A DNA stretch of 64,000 bases from an uncultured Pelagibacteraceae bacterium (GTDB lineage Bacteria; Pseudomonadota; Alphaproteobacteria; Pelagibacterales; Pelagibacteraceae), in the NCBI GenBank assembly GCA_902610975.1, contig CACLXL010000005.1:1-64000 (forward strand), in the 5' to 3' direction. Made by a program: the position numbers and the translations under genes. Under the pieces are notes generated by a model that was not told the DNA's origin, did not search any database, and saw only the letters and a list, made by a program, of their open reading frames with translations. Shown here in pieces: positions 8,611 to 17,981 of this stretch. The first letter of the stretch is position 1; the number at the start of each line of letters is the position of its first letter.

Positions 8611-9369
8611 TTAGTAAATTTCTTTTCTTAATTGTTCCAACTTAATTTTTTTTTGCAAACTCTTATTTTTATCATAAAGAAGATTAAATTTAATTTTCTT
8701 CTGGACTGTAATAGCAATTTTTTTTGCGTTTCTTATTTCTATATTATCAGCTACAGCACTAACTGGTCTTTTAAATGGACTTAAGTTTGTAATTGTAATT
8801 AATGATTTATCACTGACTATTTTTCCCGACCATCTTCTTGGTCTAAAGGCGCTAATAGGTGCAATAGAAATTTTTTTTGAATTCAAATCTAAAATTGGCC
8901 CATGAACAGACAGATTATAAGCAGTGCTGCCTGCCGGAGTCGAAATTAGTACACCATCTGAAACTAATTTTTTCATAATAAATTTTGAGTTATGTTTGAT
9001 AGACAAATTTGCTGCCTGTCTACTTTGTCTTAAAATTGAAACTTCATTTATTGCTAAGAATTTTCTAGAATTAGTTTTATTTTTTACAATCATTTGAAGA
9101 GGAGAAATACTTATCATTTTAGATTCTTTTATATTGTTGAATAAGTTTTTCTTTGAGAATTTGTTCATAAGGAATCCATAATTTCCTGAATTTATTCCAT
9201 AAAATTTTTTATCTTTATTTTTGTTTTTTTTGAGTGTCTTTAACATAAACCCATCACCTCCAATTACAATTACAGTGTTAATTTTTTTAAGAGGTTTTTT
9301 TTTAAAAATTTTGATAATAGAATTTTTTATCTTTAATGATTTTAAATTTTTATCTGAAATAATTAACAT
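8611..9369 (-). CDS. nadK: NAD kinase
   Basis: Phosphorylates NAD to NADP. The 252-residue protein has the diagnostic GGDGFMLKTL motif at about residues 37-46, the NSGNYGFLMN strand, and the PAGSTAYNLSVHGPIL motif near residue 145 that contacts nucleotide. Length is slightly short for the family. Its ATG lies 17 bases after the end of tRNA-Leu on the same strand, so the two are probably cotranscribed. Confidence 0.93.
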   Translation of the reverse strand: MLIISDKNLKSLKIKNSIIKIFKKKPLKKINTVIVIGGDGFMLKTLKKNKNKDKKFYGINSGNYGFLMNKFSKKNLFNNIKESKMISISPLQMIVKNKTNSRKFLAINEVSILRQSRQAANLSIKHNSKFIMKKLVSDGVLISTPAGSTAYNLSVHGPILDLNSKKISIAPISAFRPRRWSGKIVSDKSLITITNLSPFKRPVSAVADNIEIRNAKKIAITVQKKIKFNLLYDKNKSLQKKIKLEQLRKEIY

Positions 9370-9386
9370 TTTATTTAATATTTAAG

Positions 9387-9472
9387 TGGTGCCCTCGGCC
9401 AGACTCGAACTGGCACTCCCAAAAGGGCAAGGATTTTAAGTCCTTTGTGTCTACCAATTTCACCACGAGGGC
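9387..9472 (-). tRNA. tRNA-Leu (anticodon TAA), island attachment site
   Basis: Class II tRNA. The acceptor strand GCCCTCG pairs with CGAGGGC, the anticodon loop CTTAAAA gives TAA, a long variable arm is present, the T arm is CCAGTTCGAGTCTGG, and ACCA is encoded. Length 86 bases. Its 5' half from the anticodon loop outward (9434-9474) is exactly duplicated at 16919-16959, marking this gene as the target of an integration event. The gene itself is intact. Confidence 0.97.
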
Positions 9473-9474
9473 AC
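9434..9474 (-). repeat. Direct repeat copy 1 (att-like core in tRNA-Leu)
   Basis: This 41-base segment covers the tRNA-Leu 5' end, D arm and 5' half of the anticodon arm. It is identical to 16919-16959 in the same orientation, and identity stops abruptly on both sides. Integrases of the tyrosine recombinase family commonly use tRNA anticodon arms as crossover sites. Confidence 0.85.
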
Positions 9475-9553
9475 GTCGTTGTTTTTGTTGTTATTGTTAA
9501 TATATTAATACACAAGTGTTTTAAATAAGTAAAAATAATTTATTTTACGTCTC

Positions 9554-9600
9554 TATCTTCTAGTTGTCTTCTAGTCTTCCCATATTTTATATGACAATAA
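9554..9600 (+). repeat. 47-base imperfect repeat, copy 1
   Basis: Matches 13046-13092 at 41 of 47 positions by eye, in the same orientation. It contains TCTTCTAG twice with an 11-base period (9556-9563 and 9567-9574), then a shared CATATTTTATA and GACAATAA tail. A shorter related block with the same doubled TCTTCTAG lies at 16774-16792. Confidence 0.7.
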
Positions 9601-9625
9601 ATGAGTTTTTTTCTGTCCGCGGCAA

Positions 9626-9640
9626 CTGGCAACAGAACGC
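9626..9640 (+). repeat. 15-base direct repeat, copy 1 (CTGGCAACAGAACGC)
   Basis: Exact copy of 9898-9912. The two copies bracket the small membrane protein gene at 9678-9893, and weaker similarity extends to both sides (GCAACTGG versus GCACCTGG before, ACC versus TCC after). Function unknown. Confidence 0.7.
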
Positions 9641-9677
9641 ACCTTGCACTACAATTAAGAATGATAAATAATCAAGC

Positions 9678-9893
9678 ATGATTGATTTTAAAAAAAATCC
9701 TAAATTAGCATTATTCACTTATGGAATATTATTATGTTCTGCTCTGATAGAAATAGGTGCAGAACTTGGACTCCATGAATTTGATGATTTTGCTTCACAT
9801 CACGGCTTAGCAATTTTTTCTATCGGAAGTTTAATTGCTAATTGGGAAAAAATTTCTCAAATATTAACTAAAGGTAAAAAAAAGAAATATTAA
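9678..9893 (+). CDS. Small membrane protein of unknown function
   Basis: A 71-residue protein I do not recognise. Two hydrophobic stretches (about residues 10-30 and 42-55) are separated by a short acidic and His-containing loop (HEFDDFASHHG), and it ends in a run of lysines, suggesting a small inner-membrane hairpin with a cytoplasmic basic tail. It is the only plus-strand gene in the island and is bracketed by 15-base direct repeats. Its integrity is supported only by the open frame and the membrane pattern. Confidence 0.55.
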   Translation: MIDFKKNPKLALFTYGILLCSALIEIGAELGLHEFDDFASHHGLAIFSIGSLIANWEKISQILTKGKKKKY

Positions 9894-9897
9894 GCAC

Positions 9898-9912
9898 CTG
9901 GCAACAGAACGC
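9898..9912 (+). repeat. 15-base direct repeat, copy 2 (CTGGCAACAGAACGC)
   Basis: Exact copy of 9626-9640, starting 5 bases after the stop of the small membrane protein gene. The pair could be recombination scars or protein-binding sites. Confidence 0.7.
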
Positions 9913-10145
9913 TCCTACTTAATTTAATATTTAAAAATATAATCCTCTTTAATAAAAGATTAAATATTTTGTAATATAGGCTTAATAATTAGATGTTCTG
10001 ATTACTTATGTTTAAACTAAAAAAAATATTAAAAAAGATTTATTATTTTATCTTCCCTAAGGAGCTTAAATAATGTGGGCATACAACGATAAAGAAAATG
10101 AGTTTATCTCATTGAATTGAACTGTTTTAGAGAATATTATTTTCA
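9913..10145. other. Gene-poor stretch with two tiny overlapping frames
   Basis: No normal gene. On the plus strand a 21-codon frame (10008-10073, product MFKLKKILKKIYYFIFPKEL plus K) overlaps by one base, as TAATG, a 15-codon frame (10073-10120, MWAYNDKENEFISLN). The second has AAGGAG 8 bases upstream. They could be real micro-proteins or the decayed end of a lost gene. Confidence 0.3.
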
Positions 10146-10766
10146 TTATTTTATGATATTTTCAATAATATAATTTGATTTAGCATCATTCATTCTTATA
10201 TTTTTAAATGTGTAAAAATATTTTTTTTTTTTTATTTTTTTTATTTTGGAAATAAATAAAAATTGAGTATGAAAAACAAGGAAATTAATATGATTTTTAT
10301 TTAGTTTTTGGTTAATTTTACCATTTTTTCGATGACTATGTAATATTAAACCAAGTTTAAAATCTTTTGTGATGCCTCTAATCTTGACTAGATTGCTTTC
10401 TTTAAAAGAAATAAAATAAACATTCTTCTTAAAACCATTACATGTTTCAAGCAATCGATTTAAAGTATTTTTCCTAAGCAGAGGCTTAATCTCAACTAAC
10501 ACTTTTGTATTTACAGTTAAAATTTTTAAAAGATCACATAGTTTTGTTATCTTGTATTTTTTTAAATTCTTATCAAGAATTGTTCTAGTTTTTTTTCTGA
10601 TATTGAATAACCTTCTTAAGCTATAATCATGAAAGCAAATGGGTGTATTGTTTTGGGTAAAGTGAATATCAGTCTCAATATTAAACTTTTTTTTTATACA
10701 CTCTTTAAATGAAGTAATATGATTTTCTCTAAAGTTTTTTTCAATTAATCCTCTGTGTATAAACAT
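10146..10766 (-). CDS. Glycerophosphodiester phosphodiesterase family protein
   Basis: Likely hydrolyses glycerophosphodiesters to glycerol-3-phosphate and an alcohol. The family signatures are visible: HRG at residues 4-6, the metal-binding ETDIHFTQNNTPICFHD segment at about 32-48 and an EIKP strand near residue 95. At 206 residues it is shorter than the usual 240-250, with the loss towards the C-terminal end of the barrel. No signal peptide, so probably cytoplasmic. It overlaps the upstream transporter gene by one base (TAATG), implying a shared function such as import and cleavage of a phosphodiester. Substrate not determined. Confidence 0.75.
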   Translation of the reverse strand: MFIHRGLIEKNFRENHITSFKECIKKKFNIETDIHFTQNNTPICFHDYSLRRLFNIRKKTRTILDKNLKKYKITKLCDLLKILTVNTKVLVEIKPLLRKNTLNRLLETCNGFKKNVYFISFKESNLVKIRGITKDFKLGLILHSHRKNGKINQKLNKNHINFLVFHTQFLFISKIKKIKKKKYFYTFKNIRMNDAKSNYIIENIIK

Positions 10767-11980
10767 TATTTTAATCCCTTGGTTCTATGCAATATGATCC
10801 ATCCAAAAAAGAGCAGTAAAAGAACTGAGGCAAAACCTATCCTTTGATTTTCAGTTATGAAAGTAATGGTTCCTACTAAAAATGGGCCAAAAAAAGACGT
10901 TAGCTTTCCAGAAGTAGCAAATAAACCAAAGGCTTTATTCTGATCCTCAATTTTTGTTAATTTAGTTATCATGACCCTACTAGCTGATTGTATTGGTCCT
11001 ATAAATAATCCCAAGAAAAATGAAAAAATAAAAAAACTAATTTTTGACTGTGTAAAAATGATTAAAATGGAGAGGAAAATAAGACATATCAAGGAAAAGG
11101 AAATTGTTTTTTTTGAATTATATTTATCATTGAAATATCCACCAAAACTAGCACCTATTAAAGCAGCAACATTCATTAAAACAGACATCATTAAAAGTTC
11201 ATTTATTGATAGTTTAAATACCCCAACAGCAAAAATACCTCCCATGACAAAAATGGTATTTAAACCATCAGCATAAAGTAGCCGTGCAAACAAAAAACGA
11301 GTTGTGTTAGTTAGACCATTATTCCAAAGAATCTTTTTTAAACTATTTGATTTTTTTTTGTTTGGTTCAACTTTTTTATATTTTGTTTGACTTAATAGTG
11401 GATAGGAAAAAATGAGAAACCAAAGGGCTACAAAAATGGCAGTGGATCTAAAATTAATTTTTTGATCTAAATCGATTAAATAATTTGATTGAATTAATAA
11501 AATAATGGTCAAAATAAGTGTGATAATGCCACCTAAATACCCCAGCGCAAAAGCAAAACCAGACACCTTTCCCACATGTTGTTTATCCGCTGAATGAATT
11601 AATAATGAATTATAGAAAATAGAACTTAGTTCATAAAAATAGTTTGCCAAACAAACTATGATTAAGGTAAATAAAATATATTCAGTAGATGGTTTTGCAA
11701 ACCATAATGCTGCTGTAAAAAATATACATAAATAGGTGCTTGATTTTAAGATAATTGAGTTTAAATTCTTCTTATCAGCTAAATTTCCTAAAAAGGGTCC
11801 GCTTAATGCAATGCATAGTCCTGATACTGAAATGGCCCAACCCCAATATGCCTGGCCATTAACCATATCTTGAACAATTGACTCCGCAAAATAATTTGAG
11901 AAAACAAAAGTTATAATAACTGTTGTAAAGGCAGAATTAGCAAAATCATAAAGAGAATATTTATAAGATTTTAAATTCAT
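10766..11980 (-). CDS. MFS transporter, UMF1/Atg22-like family
   Basis: A 404-residue protein with about 12 hydrophobic segments. It starts with the YDFANSAFTTVI motif typical of the UMF1 (unknown major facilitator 1, Atg22-like) family, followed by GNLADKK in the first cytoplasmic loop and SRVMITKLT in the second half. Substrates of bacterial UMF1 members are mostly unknown. Tight coupling to a glycerophosphodiesterase suggests transport of glycerophosphodiesters or their products; this is inference. The orphan signal-peptide remnant (11995-12033) lies just upstream. Confidence 0.8.
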   Translation of the reverse strand: MNLKSYKYSLYDFANSAFTTVIITFVFSNYFAESIVQDMVNGQAYWGWAISVSGLCIALSGPFLGNLADKKNLNSIILKSSTYLCIFFTAALWFAKPSTEYILFTLIIVCLANYFYELSSIFYNSLLIHSADKQHVGKVSGFAFALGYLGGIITLILTIILLIQSNYLIDLDQKINFRSTAIFVALWFLIFSYPLLSQTKYKKVEPNKKKSNSLKKILWNNGLTNTTRFLFARLLYADGLNTIFVMGGIFAVGVFKLSINELLMMSVLMNVAALIGASFGGYFNDKYNSKKTISFSLICLIFLSILIIFTQSKISFFIFSFFLGLFIGPIQSASRVMITKLTKIEDQNKAFGLFATSGKLTSFFGPFLVGTITFITENQRIGFASVLLLLFFGWIILHRTKGLK

Positions 11981-11994
11981 GCTAATTTAATATC

Positions 11995-12033
11995 TTATAA
12001 ATCCAGAACTACGATCGCTAAAAGTTTTTTCAT
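11995..12033 (-). pseudogene. Orphan signal-peptide fragment (gene remnant)
   Basis: ATG at 12033 begins MKKLLAIVVLDL and stops at 11995. The first ten codons match almost base for base the signal-peptide starts at 14284 and 15123. It begins one base after the stop of the upstream lyase-like gene, exactly where a next operon gene would start. The body of that gene is gone and the transporter gene follows. Best read as the stump of a fourth exported protein removed by a deletion or replaced by the transporter/phosphodiesterase pair. Confidence 0.6.
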
Positions 12034-12034
12034 T

Positions 12035-12997
12035 TTAAAGTTTATTACAATTGTACCCTAAATTTATTAGGTTTAATTTATTACATTGATCTGCAAATCT
12101 TATTTCATCTATGTACAAAATTTGAACTGTTGACGCTTCCTCATACTTCCATTTAGTTTTCACTTTTTTTCCTTTAGCCTTTATTTGATTTGCTCTTGGT
12201 TGATAAATACCAAAATTTGTTGACGAGAGTGATGAGTTTCCTGGCATTTTATTTTGCATATCTACAATTTTTTTGCCGTTAACCCATATGAATAAACTTT
12301 TCTTATTTGGTGTATGTACTATTACATCTATCCACTTTCCTAAGTGATTAGAAAAATGTTTTAAATCAAAAAAAGGTGGATCGTGATATTTTTCGCTTAT
12401 TTTTCTACAAATATTTTTTCCCAGAAGTTTTTTGCTAATTTTCACGCACTCATTGTCGTGAAGAAAACTTCTTAACTGCACATTTACAATTCCTTCAGGT
12501 GAAATACCCATTCTATAATGTGCACCTTTGCCTTTTCTATGTATTTGATTGAATATAAGTCGCGTATTTGAATGAATATAATTTTTAGGGATTAATACGG
12601 AAAATGAAAGCCATTTACTTCCCCAATCCCGATACTTTGTTCCTATAAAAACTCGTCGTGCTCCCTCATAGCAATTGTTCCAGTTATTTATGCTATCATT
12701 TGATTTCTTGTATATCCCACAATCACCTGGATGACTTTCAAATTTAATAGAGATATTATCATCTCTTGAAATTTCATCTGTGATTATCAAACAGTGATCA
12801 GGTCCTTTACCATTTTGCCAGCATGAATCCCAATGGTTCATTCTTAATTTTTTACCTTCAAGAACATTATCAGGTAAATTAATTAAACGACTATTACCAC
12901 TACTTTTGCTTCCAGCTAATTCTTTCCACACTATTGGATCAGCATATGAATTATTTAAAAAGAGAAAAAATAATAAAAATATAGACAAACTTTTCAT
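12035..12997 (-). CDS. Exported polysaccharide-lyase-like protein (heparin lyase I fold)
   Basis: A 320-residue protein with an N-terminal signal peptide (cleavage probably after NNSYA, near residue 19). The mature part resembles the polysaccharide lyase family with a jelly-roll (concanavalin-like) fold: FESHPGDCG, then LSFSVLIPKNYI, RLIFNQIHRKG, GKWIDVIVHTP, LFIWVNGKKIV, NFGIYQPR and a final LYIDEIRFAD strand. It contains several cysteines consistent with periplasmic disulfides. Family assignment is from the order of these motifs; activity and substrate are not established. A distant paralogue lies at 58503-59312. Confidence 0.6.
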   Translation of the reverse strand: MKSLSIFLLFFLFLNNSYADPIVWKELAGSKSSGNSRLINLPDNVLEGKKLRMNHWDSCWQNGKGPDHCLIITDEISRDDNISIKFESHPGDCGIYKKSNDSINNWNNCYEGARRVFIGTKYRDWGSKWLSFSVLIPKNYIHSNTRLIFNQIHRKGKGAHYRMGISPEGIVNVQLRSFLHDNECVKISKKLLGKNICRKISEKYHDPPFFDLKHFSNHLGKWIDVIVHTPNKKSLFIWVNGKKIVDMQNKMPGNSSLSSTNFGIYQPRANQIKAKGKKVKTKWKYEEASTVQILYIDEIRFADQCNKLNLINLGYNCNKL

Positions 12998-13045
12998 AGT
13001 TAAAATTTAAATTATCAGTATTAAATATTTATGAAAAGTAAAAAT

Positions 13046-13092
13046 TATCTTCTAGTTTGCACCTAGTCTTCACATATTTTATAGGACAATAA
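13046..13092 (+). repeat. 47-base imperfect repeat, copy 2
   Basis: Matches 9554-9600 at 41 of 47 positions. It occupies most of the 96-base gap between the serine hydrolase and lyase-like genes and contains TCTTCTAG (13048-13055) and a degenerate second unit (13059-13066). It may mark the seam between two separately acquired parts of the island. Confidence 0.65.
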
Positions 13093-13093
13093 G

Positions 13094-14284
13094 TTAGTTT
13101 TGTTTCCAAACAAGATTTACTAATTCTTGAGGTTTCCAACTAATAGCAAAACCATTCGTCTGAATTATTTTGTCATTTTTCCAATCAATTAAAGATAGTC
13201 TTAAACCGTGTCCTCTCATTTGAACTAAATTTTCTACATTATACCCATTTAACCAAAAGAACATTGCATATTTAGGAGCAAATTTTTTCTTAGTGGGAAC
13301 GGCATTCTTAAAAGCCTCTTGTAACTTTTTTGCCTCACAAGAGTTTTTATCCTTCATTAATTCAATAACGTATATTCCAAACCTTAGCCAATCTTCTCTA
13401 GTAAGCATGATAGATGACGATGATATTGGAACTCCCTTTTTGTCTAATAATATTTTACCCTTTGACTCAAAACCTGCAGTTTCTGAAATATTTTTTTGAA
13501 ACCATTTAGCAAACTTCTTTTTTCCTCCTAATACATTGATCATATCTAATGTTATTAAATCAGTATTAGGATTTGAGTATTTAAATTCTTTTGGTCCTTC
13601 TGTTTCTAATTTTTTAGGGTGCTTATTAAGAATAGTTGTTAAGTCAGATTTCTTTCTGTGCGTTTCCTTTAAAATATTATAATTTATTACAAATTGATCT
13701 CTAGCCAACATATTTAAGGAGTCTTTTAATTTTACATGGCCATAAAATGAGTCTTTAATTTCTGGAGAGTAATCACCATGAGTTTTATCTAAATCTAAAA
13801 TATTTTGACAAGCCATTTTTAAAGCAGCAACACCAACTATTGATTTGCTCCTAGACTCACCATTTATAGGTTTGTTATTAAAAATATAATCTCTTTTCCA
13901 ATCGTGAATTAATTCTCCTTTATCAAATACCATCAAACTAGAGATATCTCTGTAATATACATAATCATAAATTTCTTTTGGAAGAGGTTTTATATTTTTT
14001 TTAATTGGTCTGATTGTTTTTTTTGCTGGTTGTATTATAATTCTTTTTAACCCTCCATTATTTTTGTGATCTCTATTTTTCAAACTTGCTTTTCGATAAT
14101 AGCCATGAGCCCAATAATCGTGTCTTTCTGTGCAAAACTTGCAATCATTAGGAGGGTATTCTGCTTTTGGAAAATCCTTCTTCCATCTTTCTAACGAAGG
14201 AGACCATTTATTTTTTGGTGGTGTTGCAATTAAGGTGGTGCTCCACAACAAACCCAGAACCATGATCGCTAAAAGTTTTTTCAT
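13094..14284 (-). CDS. Exported serine hydrolase, beta-lactamase class C-like fold
   Basis: A 396-residue protein with signal peptide MKKLLAIMVLGLLWSTTLIA. The penicillin-binding/class C beta-lactamase layout is visible: SRSK at about residues 145-148 as the SxxK nucleophile motif, YSNPN near residue 237 as the YxN motif and RGHGLRL near 360 as the KTG-equivalent box. Members act as esterases, D-peptidases or amidases, so antibiotic resistance should not be assumed. A CKFC pair near residue 48 may form a disulfide or bind metal. It overlaps the upstream hydrolase gene by one base (TAATG). Confidence 0.72.
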   Translation of the reverse strand: MKKLLAIMVLGLLWSTTLIATPPKNKWSPSLERWKKDFPKAEYPPNDCKFCTERHDYWAHGYYRKASLKNRDHKNNGGLKRIIIQPAKKTIRPIKKNIKPLPKEIYDYVYYRDISSLMVFDKGELIHDWKRDYIFNNKPINGESRSKSIVGVAALKMACQNILDLDKTHGDYSPEIKDSFYGHVKLKDSLNMLARDQFVINYNILKETHRKKSDLTTILNKHPKKLETEGPKEFKYSNPNTDLITLDMINVLGGKKKFAKWFQKNISETAGFESKGKILLDKKGVPISSSSIMLTREDWLRFGIYVIELMKDKNSCEAKKLQEAFKNAVPTKKKFAPKYAMFFWLNGYNVENLVQMRGHGLRLSLIDWKNDKIIQTNGFAISWKPQELVNLVWKQN

Positions 14285-15123
14285 TAGTTTATATATTCTT
14301 TAATGATAGATCCAATTGTTGCCATAGACCTTAATCCGTGACCTCCATCAATAATATGTAACTTAACTTGTAGTTTTTTCTTTTTAAGTAAATCATAATA
14401 ATATTTTGAAACTCCTGGAGCTGTATTTTTATCATCTTTTCCAACAATTAATATGTTGAGAGATTTTAAATCTATATCTTTATAATTGAAACTTGGTGAG
14501 TTTTTTTTTAATTCTTTCAATTGAGATTTGGTTTCCCATTTTTTACCGTTGCTTAGTTTTTTTCTAGTTTCCCAGTCACACGGGCAAGAGATCAAAATAT
14601 TTATATCAACTAATCCTGGTACTTTTCCATGAATAGTACCTCCCTGATAAGCTCCTCCAGAATGACCAATTAAAATTAGTTTTTTTGGTTTATAATATTT
14701 TTTAAGATTTTGTAATGCAGGTGCTAGTATTTGAAAATTTTTCCAATCATAATTTACCACTGTACTCTTTATAGCGTTACGAGGTCCTGATGAATATCTA
14801 TCCTCTTCACTACTGCCTCTTTCTCTAATAAAGTAACCAGGTCTTGCAAAAAGAAAAATATTGTTATTATCGTTTATTAATTCTTTTGCAAATCTAATTT
14901 GACTTTTTTTGGGTATTCCTGGTCTTGGAGAATTAGGACTACCATCACCATGAAGAAATACTATTAAGTTTTTTTTACCCTTTTCAATCTTTCCTAAATT
15001 TAAAATTGCTATACATTTGTTTTTACCTGCTGATATATATTTTATGAAATCCTCTTTTTCACAAGCATTAGAGTTTCCACTCAACAGCAAACCTAGAACC
15101 ACGATCGCTAAAAGTTTTTTCAT
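14284..15123 (-). CDS. Exported alpha/beta hydrolase
   Basis: ATG at 15123 is preferred over the frame's extension to 15135 because it gives the clean signal peptide MKKLLAIVVLGLLLSGNSNA and forms a TAATG junction with the gene before it. The roughly 279-residue product has the alpha/beta hydrolase pattern: LIVFLHGDG (oxyanion loop), LILIGHSGGAYQ (nucleophile elbow), ILIVGKDDK (acid strand) and IDGGHGLR (catalytic histidine). Likely a periplasmic esterase or lipase-like enzyme; substrate unknown. Its neighbours suggest carbohydrate de-esterification, which is inference. Confidence 0.75.
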   Translation of the reverse strand: MKKLLAIVVLGLLLSGNSNACEKEDFIKYISAGKNKCIAILNLGKIEKGKKNLIVFLHGDGSPNSPRPGIPKKSQIRFAKELINDNNNIFLFARPGYFIRERGSSEEDRYSSGPRNAIKSTVVNYDWKNFQILAPALQNLKKYYKPKKLILIGHSGGAYQGGTIHGKVPGLVDINILISCPCDWETRKKLSNGKKWETKSQLKELKKNSPSFNYKDIDLKSLNILIVGKDDKNTAPGVSKYYYDLLKKKKLQVKLHIIDGGHGLRSMATIGSIIKEYIN

Positions 15124-16391
15124 TAATTCATACACTTTGGTTCAAATCCAAAGTTTCTATCTACAAAATAAACTGATTTTTTTGATTTCCACATTCTATC
15201 ATTTGCAACTATAGTATGATCTCTGTCTGTGTACTTTTTAATTAGCCAGTCTAGAGATATAGCCATCTGGTGTGTGTGATAATTTGCGTGCGCTTGATCT
15301 TTTGTAAAGTTCTGTAACCCCGATGGATCTTTACGTTCTCTGTATTTTTTAACATCAGTAAGTCCCAAGTTCAGTATATCGACAGTTCTATCTATTCTTT
15401 GCTTTAATTCTTTTGGAAACTCCTTATAGCCCCATAGTTCAGCTATTGCATAAAGTCCTAATAAATTATTTACACCCTGAGAATGATACCAGACATCTCT
15501 AACACCTCTGAAACTGTTATTATGAATATATCCATCTTGATATACAACTTTACCGGCTTTACTAATTCCTTTTTTAATCCATTCTGCTACGGAACCTGGT
15601 TCATCTTTCCAAGCCAAATATGATAGGACAGAGATAGTTCCATCAGCCATTTGTATAAAACCTCTTGCATGTTTCTTTGATGTAAGTTCTTTTTCAGCCC
15701 ACGGCTTGATATATTTTTTGTACAAAGTATCAATATACTCATCAATAATTTTATATTGTTCTTTAGTAAAATGATTTTTCATTAAATATGCTTGTTGGAT
15801 ATAGGTAGCTCCATATATTTGAGCTTCATGCGGTCTGTGAGAAATACAAGGTTTGTTACCTTTGGCTTTGGCTCCTCCATAACATAGTCTATCAACTTTA
15901 CCTTCATCTTTTAGTTTACTAATTTCTTTAGAAGTTAAAGTATTTAACATCACACCTGCTTCTGCCCAGGCTAGCATAACTTCAGCAATAATCGGACCAT
16001 GTTCCTTCATTTTGTTATCTACGATTGCTGTTACAATAGCTCCGTGCAGTAATGCTAACCTATTAGAATGTTTTTCGTGATTAACATATATGCTGTTTGA
16101 TCTTTGTTCGTGATCTTTGTTCCAATCATACTTAGTAAGTTTCATTAAATGATCATAGTTGTTTCCTTGTAATTCAGGATTTTTTGACTTACTTACATGT
16201 GTTATTGAAAGATCTAAGTCCCAGCCTGCTTTACCCCAACTGCCATAACCATGTACACCTTTTAGCGAACAATTTTTTTTTGTGAGTTCATTTGCAAAGA
16301 AGTATTTCGGAATAACAATATCATTTTTCTTTGCGTAAGTATTCCCACTGCACAACAAACCAAGAACTATGATCATTAGAAGTTTTTTCAT
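15123..16391 (-). CDS. Exported alginate-lyase-like protein (alpha/alpha toroid)
   Basis: A 422-residue protein with signal peptide MKKLLMIIVLGLLCSGNTYA. The helical mature region has widely spaced His, Asn, Tyr and Trp motifs typical of the alginate lyase (PL5-like) fold, notably VWYHSQGVNNLLGLYAIAEL near residues 310-330 and HANYHTHQMAISLDWLIKKY near 375-395. Such enzymes cleave uronic-acid polysaccharides by beta-elimination. Assignment is by fold-like motif only and could be another (alpha/alpha) enzyme. It starts immediately after the stop of the small cytosolic gene upstream. Confidence 0.55.
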   Translation of the reverse strand: MKKLLMIIVLGLLCSGNTYAKKNDIVIPKYFFANELTKKNCSLKGVHGYGSWGKAGWDLDLSITHVSKSKNPELQGNNYDHLMKLTKYDWNKDHEQRSNSIYVNHEKHSNRLALLHGAIVTAIVDNKMKEHGPIIAEVMLAWAEAGVMLNTLTSKEISKLKDEGKVDRLCYGGAKAKGNKPCISHRPHEAQIYGATYIQQAYLMKNHFTKEQYKIIDEYIDTLYKKYIKPWAEKELTSKKHARGFIQMADGTISVLSYLAWKDEPGSVAEWIKKGISKAGKVVYQDGYIHNNSFRGVRDVWYHSQGVNNLLGLYAIAELWGYKEFPKELKQRIDRTVDILNLGLTDVKKYRERKDPSGLQNFTKDQAHANYHTHQMAISLDWLIKKYTDRDHTIVANDRMWKSKKSVYFVDRNFGFEPKCMN

Positions 16392-16706
16392 TTAATTTTT
16401 AATATATGCATCTGGATAGTTAGCAAGATGCTCATCTGAAATTGGAGTCATTACAGCAGTTTCTAAAACAGCTCCAGCTTCCTTTCTTTTCTCAGCAAGT
16501 TCCTTATCATCCTTAAAAGCTTGGAGTGCTTCCATGTTTGGAAATTGCATTACTGTATGAAGTTTTGTCGGGTCATCTTTTTGTGTGCCTGCAAAAACAA
16601 ATTTTATTCCATGTTCTTTTAATTTTCCATCCTGCGCATAGACCATCTCTTTCCATGTTTTAAATCCTTTAGTAATTGTAATTTCACCTTTGACTAGTAT
16701 TCCCAT
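16392..16706 (-). CDS. Small protein of the dimeric alpha/beta-barrel type
   Basis: A 104-residue protein without signal peptide, preceded by a strong ribosome binding site (AAGGAG, 7 bases before ATG at 16706). The alternating pattern KGEITIT...FKTWKEMVYAQ...GIKFVFAGTQ...LHTVMQFPNMEALQAF resembles the ferredoxin-like dimeric alpha/beta-barrel proteins (antibiotic-biosynthesis-monooxygenase or DUF3764-like). Function unknown. It is the first gene of the island's minus-strand operon and points away from the displaced tRNA fragment. Confidence 0.6.
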   Translation of the reverse strand: MGILVKGEITITKGFKTWKEMVYAQDGKLKEHGIKFVFAGTQKDDPTKLHTVMQFPNMEALQAFKDDKELAEKRKEAGAVLETAVMTPISDEHLANYPDAYIKN

Positions 16707-16773
16707 ATCAAACTCCTTATTTATATTTTAAAAGTTTTTTCAATAAATAATCTTACCAAATTTTCCCTTTCTG

Positions 16774-16792
16774 TCTTCTAGTTATCTTCTAG
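16774..16792 (+). repeat. Doubled TCTTCTAG motif with 11-base period
   Basis: TCTTCTAG occurs at 16774-16781 and 16785-16792, the same spacing as at 9556-9574 near the other island end. It may be a protein-binding site or a recombination relic. Confidence 0.6.
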
Positions 16793-16869
16793 ACTGCACA
16801 AATAAATTTGCCTTGATTTCTAATATTAATTGAAGGGCTAAATAATTAAATGAGGATTGATAATGTTTT

Positions 16870-16899
16870 GAGACTATCTGAGACTGTCTGAGACTCTAA
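16870..16899 (+). repeat. Three tandem 10-base repeats beside the tRNA fragment
   Basis: Three direct units with a 10-base period: GAGACTATCT, GAGACTGTCT, GAGACTCTAA. They end 19 bases before the duplicated tRNA segment. Short direct repeats next to an attachment core are typical of the arm-type sites of tyrosine integrases, so this could be part of an attachment site. Confidence 0.6.
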
Positions 16900-16918
16900 T
16901 CTTGCTCTATCCCTAGGG

Positions 16919-16959
16919 TTTTAAGTCCTTTGTGTCTACCAATTTCACCACGAGGGCAC
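16919..16959 (-). repeat. Direct repeat copy 2: displaced 5' half of tRNA-Leu
   Basis: Identical over 41 bases to 9434-9474. On the minus strand it is the tRNA-Leu 5' end through the anticodon loop, with no 3' half, so it cannot make a tRNA. It is immediately bordered by CCCTAGGG on the island side. Best explained as the original 5' half left behind when the island inserted. Confidence 0.8.
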
Positions 16960-17027
16960 ATTAATTTAAATTTACTATGTATATGATATTTATATTATTA
17001 TTTAAATCTTATAAATTATATTTTTAA

Positions 17028-17981
17028 ATGGAAAGAATCTTAATATACAACTCTGGAGGCGGACTTGGTGACTCAATTCAGCTATTTCCTTTAATAATTA
17101 GTCTAAAAAGCCATTTTAAAAAATCTAAGTTTTATTATTTAGGCGCTCATGCAAATCATTTTAACGGACGATTGAAAGAATATAACATTAAATTAGAAAC
17201 TTTAGACTTAGGGTTAAAATATTTTGGCTTTAGATGGTGGCATGCACTTTTTGTAAAAAAACGTTTTACAAAAGTAACTTTAGGTAAATTTAATTTGATA
17301 ATTGATTTACAAACCAAACTAAGGAATACGATGATATTAAAACAAATACCTCATGATTTTTTTTATTCAAGAACCCTTAATGGACGTTTGTCTTCAAAAA
17401 AAATCAAGTCAATCTCATCAGACCATTTCGAAAATTTAAGTTTATTTTTTGAAGAAGATATTCTGAAGCTTGACTTTAAAGTAAAAAAATTACCCAAAGA
17501 GATTCTATCAGAGGCCAAAAGACTTTTGCCAAATTCAAATTACGTAGGGTTTTCAGTTACACAAGGTAATGAGTATAGGAAAAAAAGTTGGTCAATTTTT
17601 AAATTTACAGCTTTAGCAAATAAAATATTATCAAAAAATAAAATACCTGTTTTTTTCGTTGAAAAGAATAGAGTTGATCTTATTGAGAAAATTAAAAGTC
17701 AAGTTCCAGCAGCAATTTTTCCTGAAATTAATTCCAAATTAGCTTGCCCTGCCCTAGTAACTGCACTAGCTTCTAGATTAGAAACTGCGGTATCTATAGA
17801 TAATGGTGTTATGCATATGATGGCTTTAGCTAACATTCCTATGATAGTTTTATTTGGGCCAACTAATGCTGAGAAATTTGCGCCGAAAAATAAATTTACT
17901 AAAATTTTAGATAGTAAAAAAATCCATAAAAATAAAGATATAAACTCAATTGAAGTTAACGAAGTTCTTACTCTGATTTAA
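17028..17981 (+). CDS. Glycosyltransferase family 9 (heptosyltransferase-like)
   Basis: A 317-residue GT-B glycosyltransferase of the ADP-heptose:LPS heptosyltransferase family, expected to build the LPS core at the inner face of the cytoplasmic membrane. It begins with YNSGGGLGDSIQLFPLI, has DLQTKLRN near residue 90, and the donor-binding SIDNGVMHMMALANIPMIVLFGP segment near residue 260. It is the first gene past the island and ends overlapping the convergent CinA-like gene by 4 bases. A second family member lies at 61455-62387. Confidence 0.85.
   Translation: MERILIYNSGGGLGDSIQLFPLIISLKSHFKKSKFYYLGAHANHFNGRLKEYNIKLETLDLGLKYFGFRWWHALFVKKRFTKVTLGKFNLIIDLQTKLRNTMILKQIPHDFFYSRTLNGRLSSKKIKSISSDHFENLSLFFEEDILKLDFKVKKLPKEILSEAKRLLPNSNYVGFSVTQGNEYRKKSWSIFKFTALANKILSKNKIPVFFVEKNRVDLIEKIKSQVPAAIFPEINSKLACPALVTALASRLETAVSIDNGVMHMMALANIPMIVLFGPTNAEKFAPKNKFTKILDSKKIHKNKDINSIEVNEVLTLI

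Follow-up and report, generated by a model that had tools for sequence, protein, structure and literature searches.

The question raised by this locus is whether a tRNA promoter, separated from its gene by a genomic island, now drives the genes of that island. The window, that is, the whole stretch of 64,000 nucleotides analysed here, has a GC content of 30.6%, appears SAR11-like in its composition and its gene order, and contains a single copy of tRNA-Leu(UAA), located by ARAGORN at 9387-9472 on the minus strand. The only other match to this gene in the 892-kb assembly lies at the opposite end of the island, where the minus-strand sequence 16959-16915 is identical to the intact tRNA from 16959 to 16919, with one mismatch beyond (E = 3.7e-16, far above chance). 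This stump (16919-16959) comprises the 5' half of tRNA-Leu, now displaced, and the two bases upstream of it, and its limits had been placed correctly in the first-pass annotation. It represents an attR-type junction. The intact gene represents the attL-type junction, its 5' half being derived from the inserted cassette and its 3' half from the chromosome.

That annotation had also proposed that the island cut tRNA-Leu off from its original upstream DNA, which would now lie at about 16960-17027 on the minus strand, facing the island. The stump and the comparison with relatives agree with both points. A search of 150 relatives for the neighbouring GT9 gene (17028-17981) was followed by a comparison of the DNA upstream of it. 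Twelve empty sites were found, with an intact tRNA-Leu ~62-74 bp from the same GT9 gene, and the interval between them has a consensus of about ATATACTTTATAAGATTTAAATAATAATATAAATGTCATATA, corresponding to 16958-17027 in the window. Since upstream sequence and spacing match at these 12 sites, 16958-17027 (minus strand) is taken as the displaced ancestral upstream region of tRNA-Leu (type A, region A). Judged by this comparison of sequences, it is the original upstream region that faces the island.

In eight occupied relatives region A also precedes the stump, and where the intact tRNA was recovered as well, a different conserved sequence is found upstream of it. In the window, this is the type B1 replacement tRNA promoter brought by the cassette (9473-9533, minus strand), with TTTACTTATTTAAAA at 9533-9519 and CTTGTGTATTAATATATTAA at 9516-9497. 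B1 is missing at empty sites and is conserved upstream of the intact tRNA and of internal stumps in occupied relatives. Five other relatives present B1 and the intact tRNA adjoining GT9, region A having been lost near the repeat, probably by deletion.

The island belongs to a wider family of cassettes. The breakpoint of the stump follows a pattern (AAAA, four variable bases, ARGGA), and scanning 169 genomes of the genus revealed 42 such sites in 34 of them, six genomes carrying tandem stumps, two or three per contig. Read in the direction of the tRNA, the previous promoter and the tRNA 5' half are followed by a right end of ~110 bp containing GTCTC repeats, a paired repeat of the ACTAG type, the cargo, a second paired repeat and a replacement promoter, after which comes the next tRNA 5' half. 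The replacement promoters are of two types, B1 (TTTACTT...CTTGTGTATTAATATA) and B2 (TTTACTT...AATTATAAATATTAGC). Cassettes measure ~1-8 kb and consist of attP and cargo, without an integrase; compact ones, with one to a few genes between ends of fixed length, recur with different cargo. Cargo ORFs of 90 aa or more number 77 in a set of 30 distinct cassettes, and every one of them, the 30 first genes included, is oriented in the tRNA direction. From the point where the copies diverge, the crossover would be located in the anticodon loop of tRNA-Leu. The four bases after the crossover vary (16911-16918 and equivalents in 30 cassettes) and the sequences on both sides of them, AAAA and ARGGA, are conserved.

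In the window, the conserved right end of the cassette (16870-16918, minus strand) presents CCCTAGGGA next to the crossover, together with GTCTC repeats. The paired repeats are CTAGAAGACAACTAGAAGAT on the left (9555-9574) and CTAGAAGATAACTAGAAGACAG on the right (16771-16792), both on the minus strand. Repeats of this ACTAGAAGA type, with an 11-bp period, flank each cargo in pairs, as also seen at five other loci. Within a cassette, the variable part of the repeat at one end changes in concert with that at the other (permutation p = 1e-4). Arm-type sites recognised by a cognate integrase would be expected to behave in this way, and the repeats could have this role. Concerning the cargo of other cassettes, those at L039 (3058-7884) and L088 (6098-10696) have a single gene each; the products are a type IIG restriction enzyme-methyltransferase and a large protein similar to models of defence helicases, so that anti-phage functions may also be among the cargo of the arrays.

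The cargo of the island itself (10146-16706) consists of seven co-directional ORFs on the minus strand, annotated by Pfam as enzymes, a transporter and unknowns. Starting from the stump, these encode a DUF3764 protein (16392-16706), a 422-aa product (15123-16391), a Peptidase_S9-like protein (14284-15135), a 396-aa product (13094-14284), a polysaccharide lyase (12035-12997), an MFS/ATG22 transporter (10766-11980) and a GDPD protein (10146-10766). In relatives, DUF3764 cassettes are located behind an A or a B2 promoter (L035 and L086). Among these seven ORFs, Pfam annotation showed no integrase or tyrosine recombinase, and the idea of an integrase hidden in the island was rejected on this basis; phage structural or replication genes were also absent from the island ORFs. 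The first-pass view that all the island genes share one strand holds for the ORFs from 16706 leftward, with one small conserved ORF of 71 aa lying on the plus strand (9678-9893). The conservation of this counter-oriented ORF is seen in one type of cassette, and in the window a 23-nt direct repeat (9622-9644 and 9894-9916, 91% alike) flanks it.

An internal copy of the paired repeat (repeat D5, 13046-13104, minus strand) looks like the junction of two cassettes fused at their repeats. The leader of the polysaccharide lyase is the same sequence that starts the cassette after the stump in L039, L085 and L093, which points to a fusion at the repeat; the possibility that the 13046 junction is a decayed B1 promoter was rejected for the same reason. 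Given this apparent fusion, the seven-gene island is probably made of at least two former cassettes.

Whether the displaced region is used towards the cargo is a separate matter. Region A contains a conserved -10 candidate, TATAAAT, at 16994-16988 (minus strand), from which an RNA start near 16981 is predicted, ~25 nt upstream of 16957, the tRNA 5' end. Intrinsic terminators were found neither in 30 cassette leaders nor in 23 trailers, and a right-end terminator insulating the cargo was rejected given its absence from those leaders. At two loci with a decayed stump, the changes amount to 19 of 78 positions in the stump versus 4 of 91 in the promoter, where the count was made by hand. Moreover, B1 lies before an ORF, with the stump gone, in L082, in L141 and in L157 at 484 and at 1704, and in the last of these fusions the ATG is ~20 nt from the -10. 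Such natural fusions are few, and in some the -10 is nearer. The conservation of region A was rejected as proof of leftward use, since this region is shared with the divergent GT9 gene starting at 17028 and the argument is thus confounded. Regarding these data, some read-through from region A is likely and the displaced promoter is a plausible driver of the island operon, as originally suggested, but its being the main driver is the less probable outcome.

The first-pass annotation had further expected a transcript beginning with the tRNA half, at 16957. This 5' end is probably wrong even if the displaced promoter is used. With the start that TATAAAT predicts, the RNA would contain the tRNA half rather than begin with it, and trimming to 16957 is not expected, since stump and right-end sequences fold no better than shuffles (four sequences). 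A tRNA-like RNA trimmable by RNase P was rejected on the same grounds.

The strongest alternative, which we regard as possible although somewhat doubtful, is that the right end of the cassette holds a promoter from which the cargo is expressed, the displaced tRNA promoter being no more than a scar without activity. A candidate read from sequence only, AAGACA-16-TGGTAAGAT, lies at 16750-16777 on the minus strand (AAGACA at 16777-16772, TGGTAAGAT ending at 16750), nearer to the 16706 gene than region A, and AAGGAG at 16718-16713 precedes the 16706 start, so this reading would give a short leader. For most of the other cassettes the distance between the -10 and the ATG is 4-16 nt, which would imply nearly leaderless mRNAs. 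A -10-like box near the ATG is present in 19 of 26 cassette first genes, versus 42% of other genes in a control set that is redundant and 34% of shuffles. Only 3 of 26 have a Shine-Dalgarno site, versus 30%; the frequency of the former and the rarity of the latter favour an own promoter. Furthermore, leader length is nearly fixed among cassettes, so such a promoter would travel with the cassette. Nevertheless, matches to a consensus count for little in AT-rich DNA, a consensus scan found no minus-strand promoter in 16707-16915, and no obstacle to transcription from region A was found.

The explanation that we consider the best, and on balance probable, combines both sources of transcription. 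An integrase-less cassette, consisting of attP and cargo, would enter the anticodon loop of tRNA-Leu(UAA) by site-specific recombination. As the comparison of occupied and empty sites indicates, the cassette brings both a promoter and, downstream of it, a tRNA 5' half. The tRNA thus stays intact, now with promoter B1, and the ancestral promoter and 5' half are left at the opposite end of the cassette, directed towards the cargo. From a start near 16981, RNA polymerase would then read through the stump into the cargo, adding to transcription from the cassette-borne promoter near 16777-16750. Each insertion would take over the previous tRNA promoter and donate a new one, and the integrases of small circular satellite-like elements would mobilise the cassettes in trans.

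It is improbable that the stump was instead left by an ordinary phage or by a satellite prophage that later lost its phage genes and integrase: the viral contigs L180, L183, L185 and L189 share the tRNA 5' half, and a 46-bp tRNA-Leu match has been reported in an HTVC019P-like pelagiphage genome (PMC3861242), but the sequence downstream differs in those contigs, whereas the right end seen here (ARGGA, GTCTC repeats, paired repeat) is common to the cassettes, and compact cassettes with fixed ends recur with different cargo. The same 5' half with unrelated flanks occurs in many viral contigs, these four together with L186 and L195 among them, so there may be competition between phages and cassettes for a single attachment site.

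Regarding the mobility proposed in the preferred explanation, most genomes of the genus encode a single tyrosine recombinase of ~310-325 aa, which by its size is probably XerC/D. Two viral contigs, L108 (9.0 kb) and L179 (7.8 kb), look circular by their terminal overlaps and present an attP layout similar to that of the cassettes, with a tyrosine integrase gene starting ~100 nt past the crossover (tRNA-Leu 5' half/attP and integrase at contig positions 8855 and 84-1733 in L108, and at 13-41, 143-1780 and 7713-7741 in L179). L108 also encodes a DUF5906 protein. Among the genus genomes, a relative of this type of integrase was found only in G199. Elements of this type are possible autonomous helpers of the cassettes, and the shared anatomy suggests that they could mobilise them in trans.

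More tentatively, these observations could be generalised as a promoter relay in SAR11, a scheme that may well prove wrong. Each cassette would adopt the current tRNA promoter for its expression and supply the tRNA with a replacement, so that tandem arrays would be alternating units of promoter and cassette, with the cargo expressed without integron machinery and satellite-type integrases mobilising the cassettes in trans. SAR11 bacteria count among the ocean's most abundant cell types; to our knowledge, few mobile elements are known in them. Through integrase-less stackable cassettes at one tRNA, carrying metabolic and anti-phage genes, this group would have a concrete way of gaining genes. 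If the displaced tRNA promoter expresses the cassettes, integration itself would secure expression, and the element must bring a working tRNA promoter to spare the host. Natural empty and occupied sites let the fate of the displaced promoter be tested directly.

A limited literature search found no published account of SAR11 cassette arrays that, like these, lack an integrase, and the nearest known systems differ in several features. T7-like cyanophages have their attachment site in the first half of tRNA-Leu (PMC8776855). These and the pelagiphages are phages with an integrase beside attP, whereas phage genes and an integrase are both absent from the cassette, and no phage structural or replication genes of a pelagiphage-type prophage appear in the Pfam annotation of the island. 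Elements that target the 5' end of dusA or prfC (IMEVchUSA3, SXT) separate the gene from its promoter and provide another in its place; the accessible part of that report (PMC8409611) gives no description of the displaced promoter being used. The likeness lies in a target severed from its promoter and a replacement supplied by the element; here, at the level of sequence, B1 or B2 stands in place of A before the intact tRNA. However, those elements target protein genes and have their own integrase, whereas the cassette targets a tRNA and has none of its own.

Tycheposons are described as tRNA-bounded cargo elements of 4-200 kb with a tyrosine recombinase (PMC10872708). Both are tRNA-bounded cargo in streamlined marine bacteria, and the island has an intact tRNA-Leu at one end and its 5' half at the other. 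However, it has no tyrosine recombinase, and the cassettes are smaller (~1-8 kb). Since no integrase was found among the seven cargo ORFs, the island is not classified as a tycheposon.

Integron gene cassettes are stackable cargo inserted beside a fixed strong promoter. The anatomy argues against membership in an integron cassette array (attC, IntI). No integron integrase appears in the Pfam annotation of the island ORFs, and each cassette brings a new promoter and a tRNA attachment site. The likeness, stackable cargo beside a strong promoter, would hold only if the relay is true.
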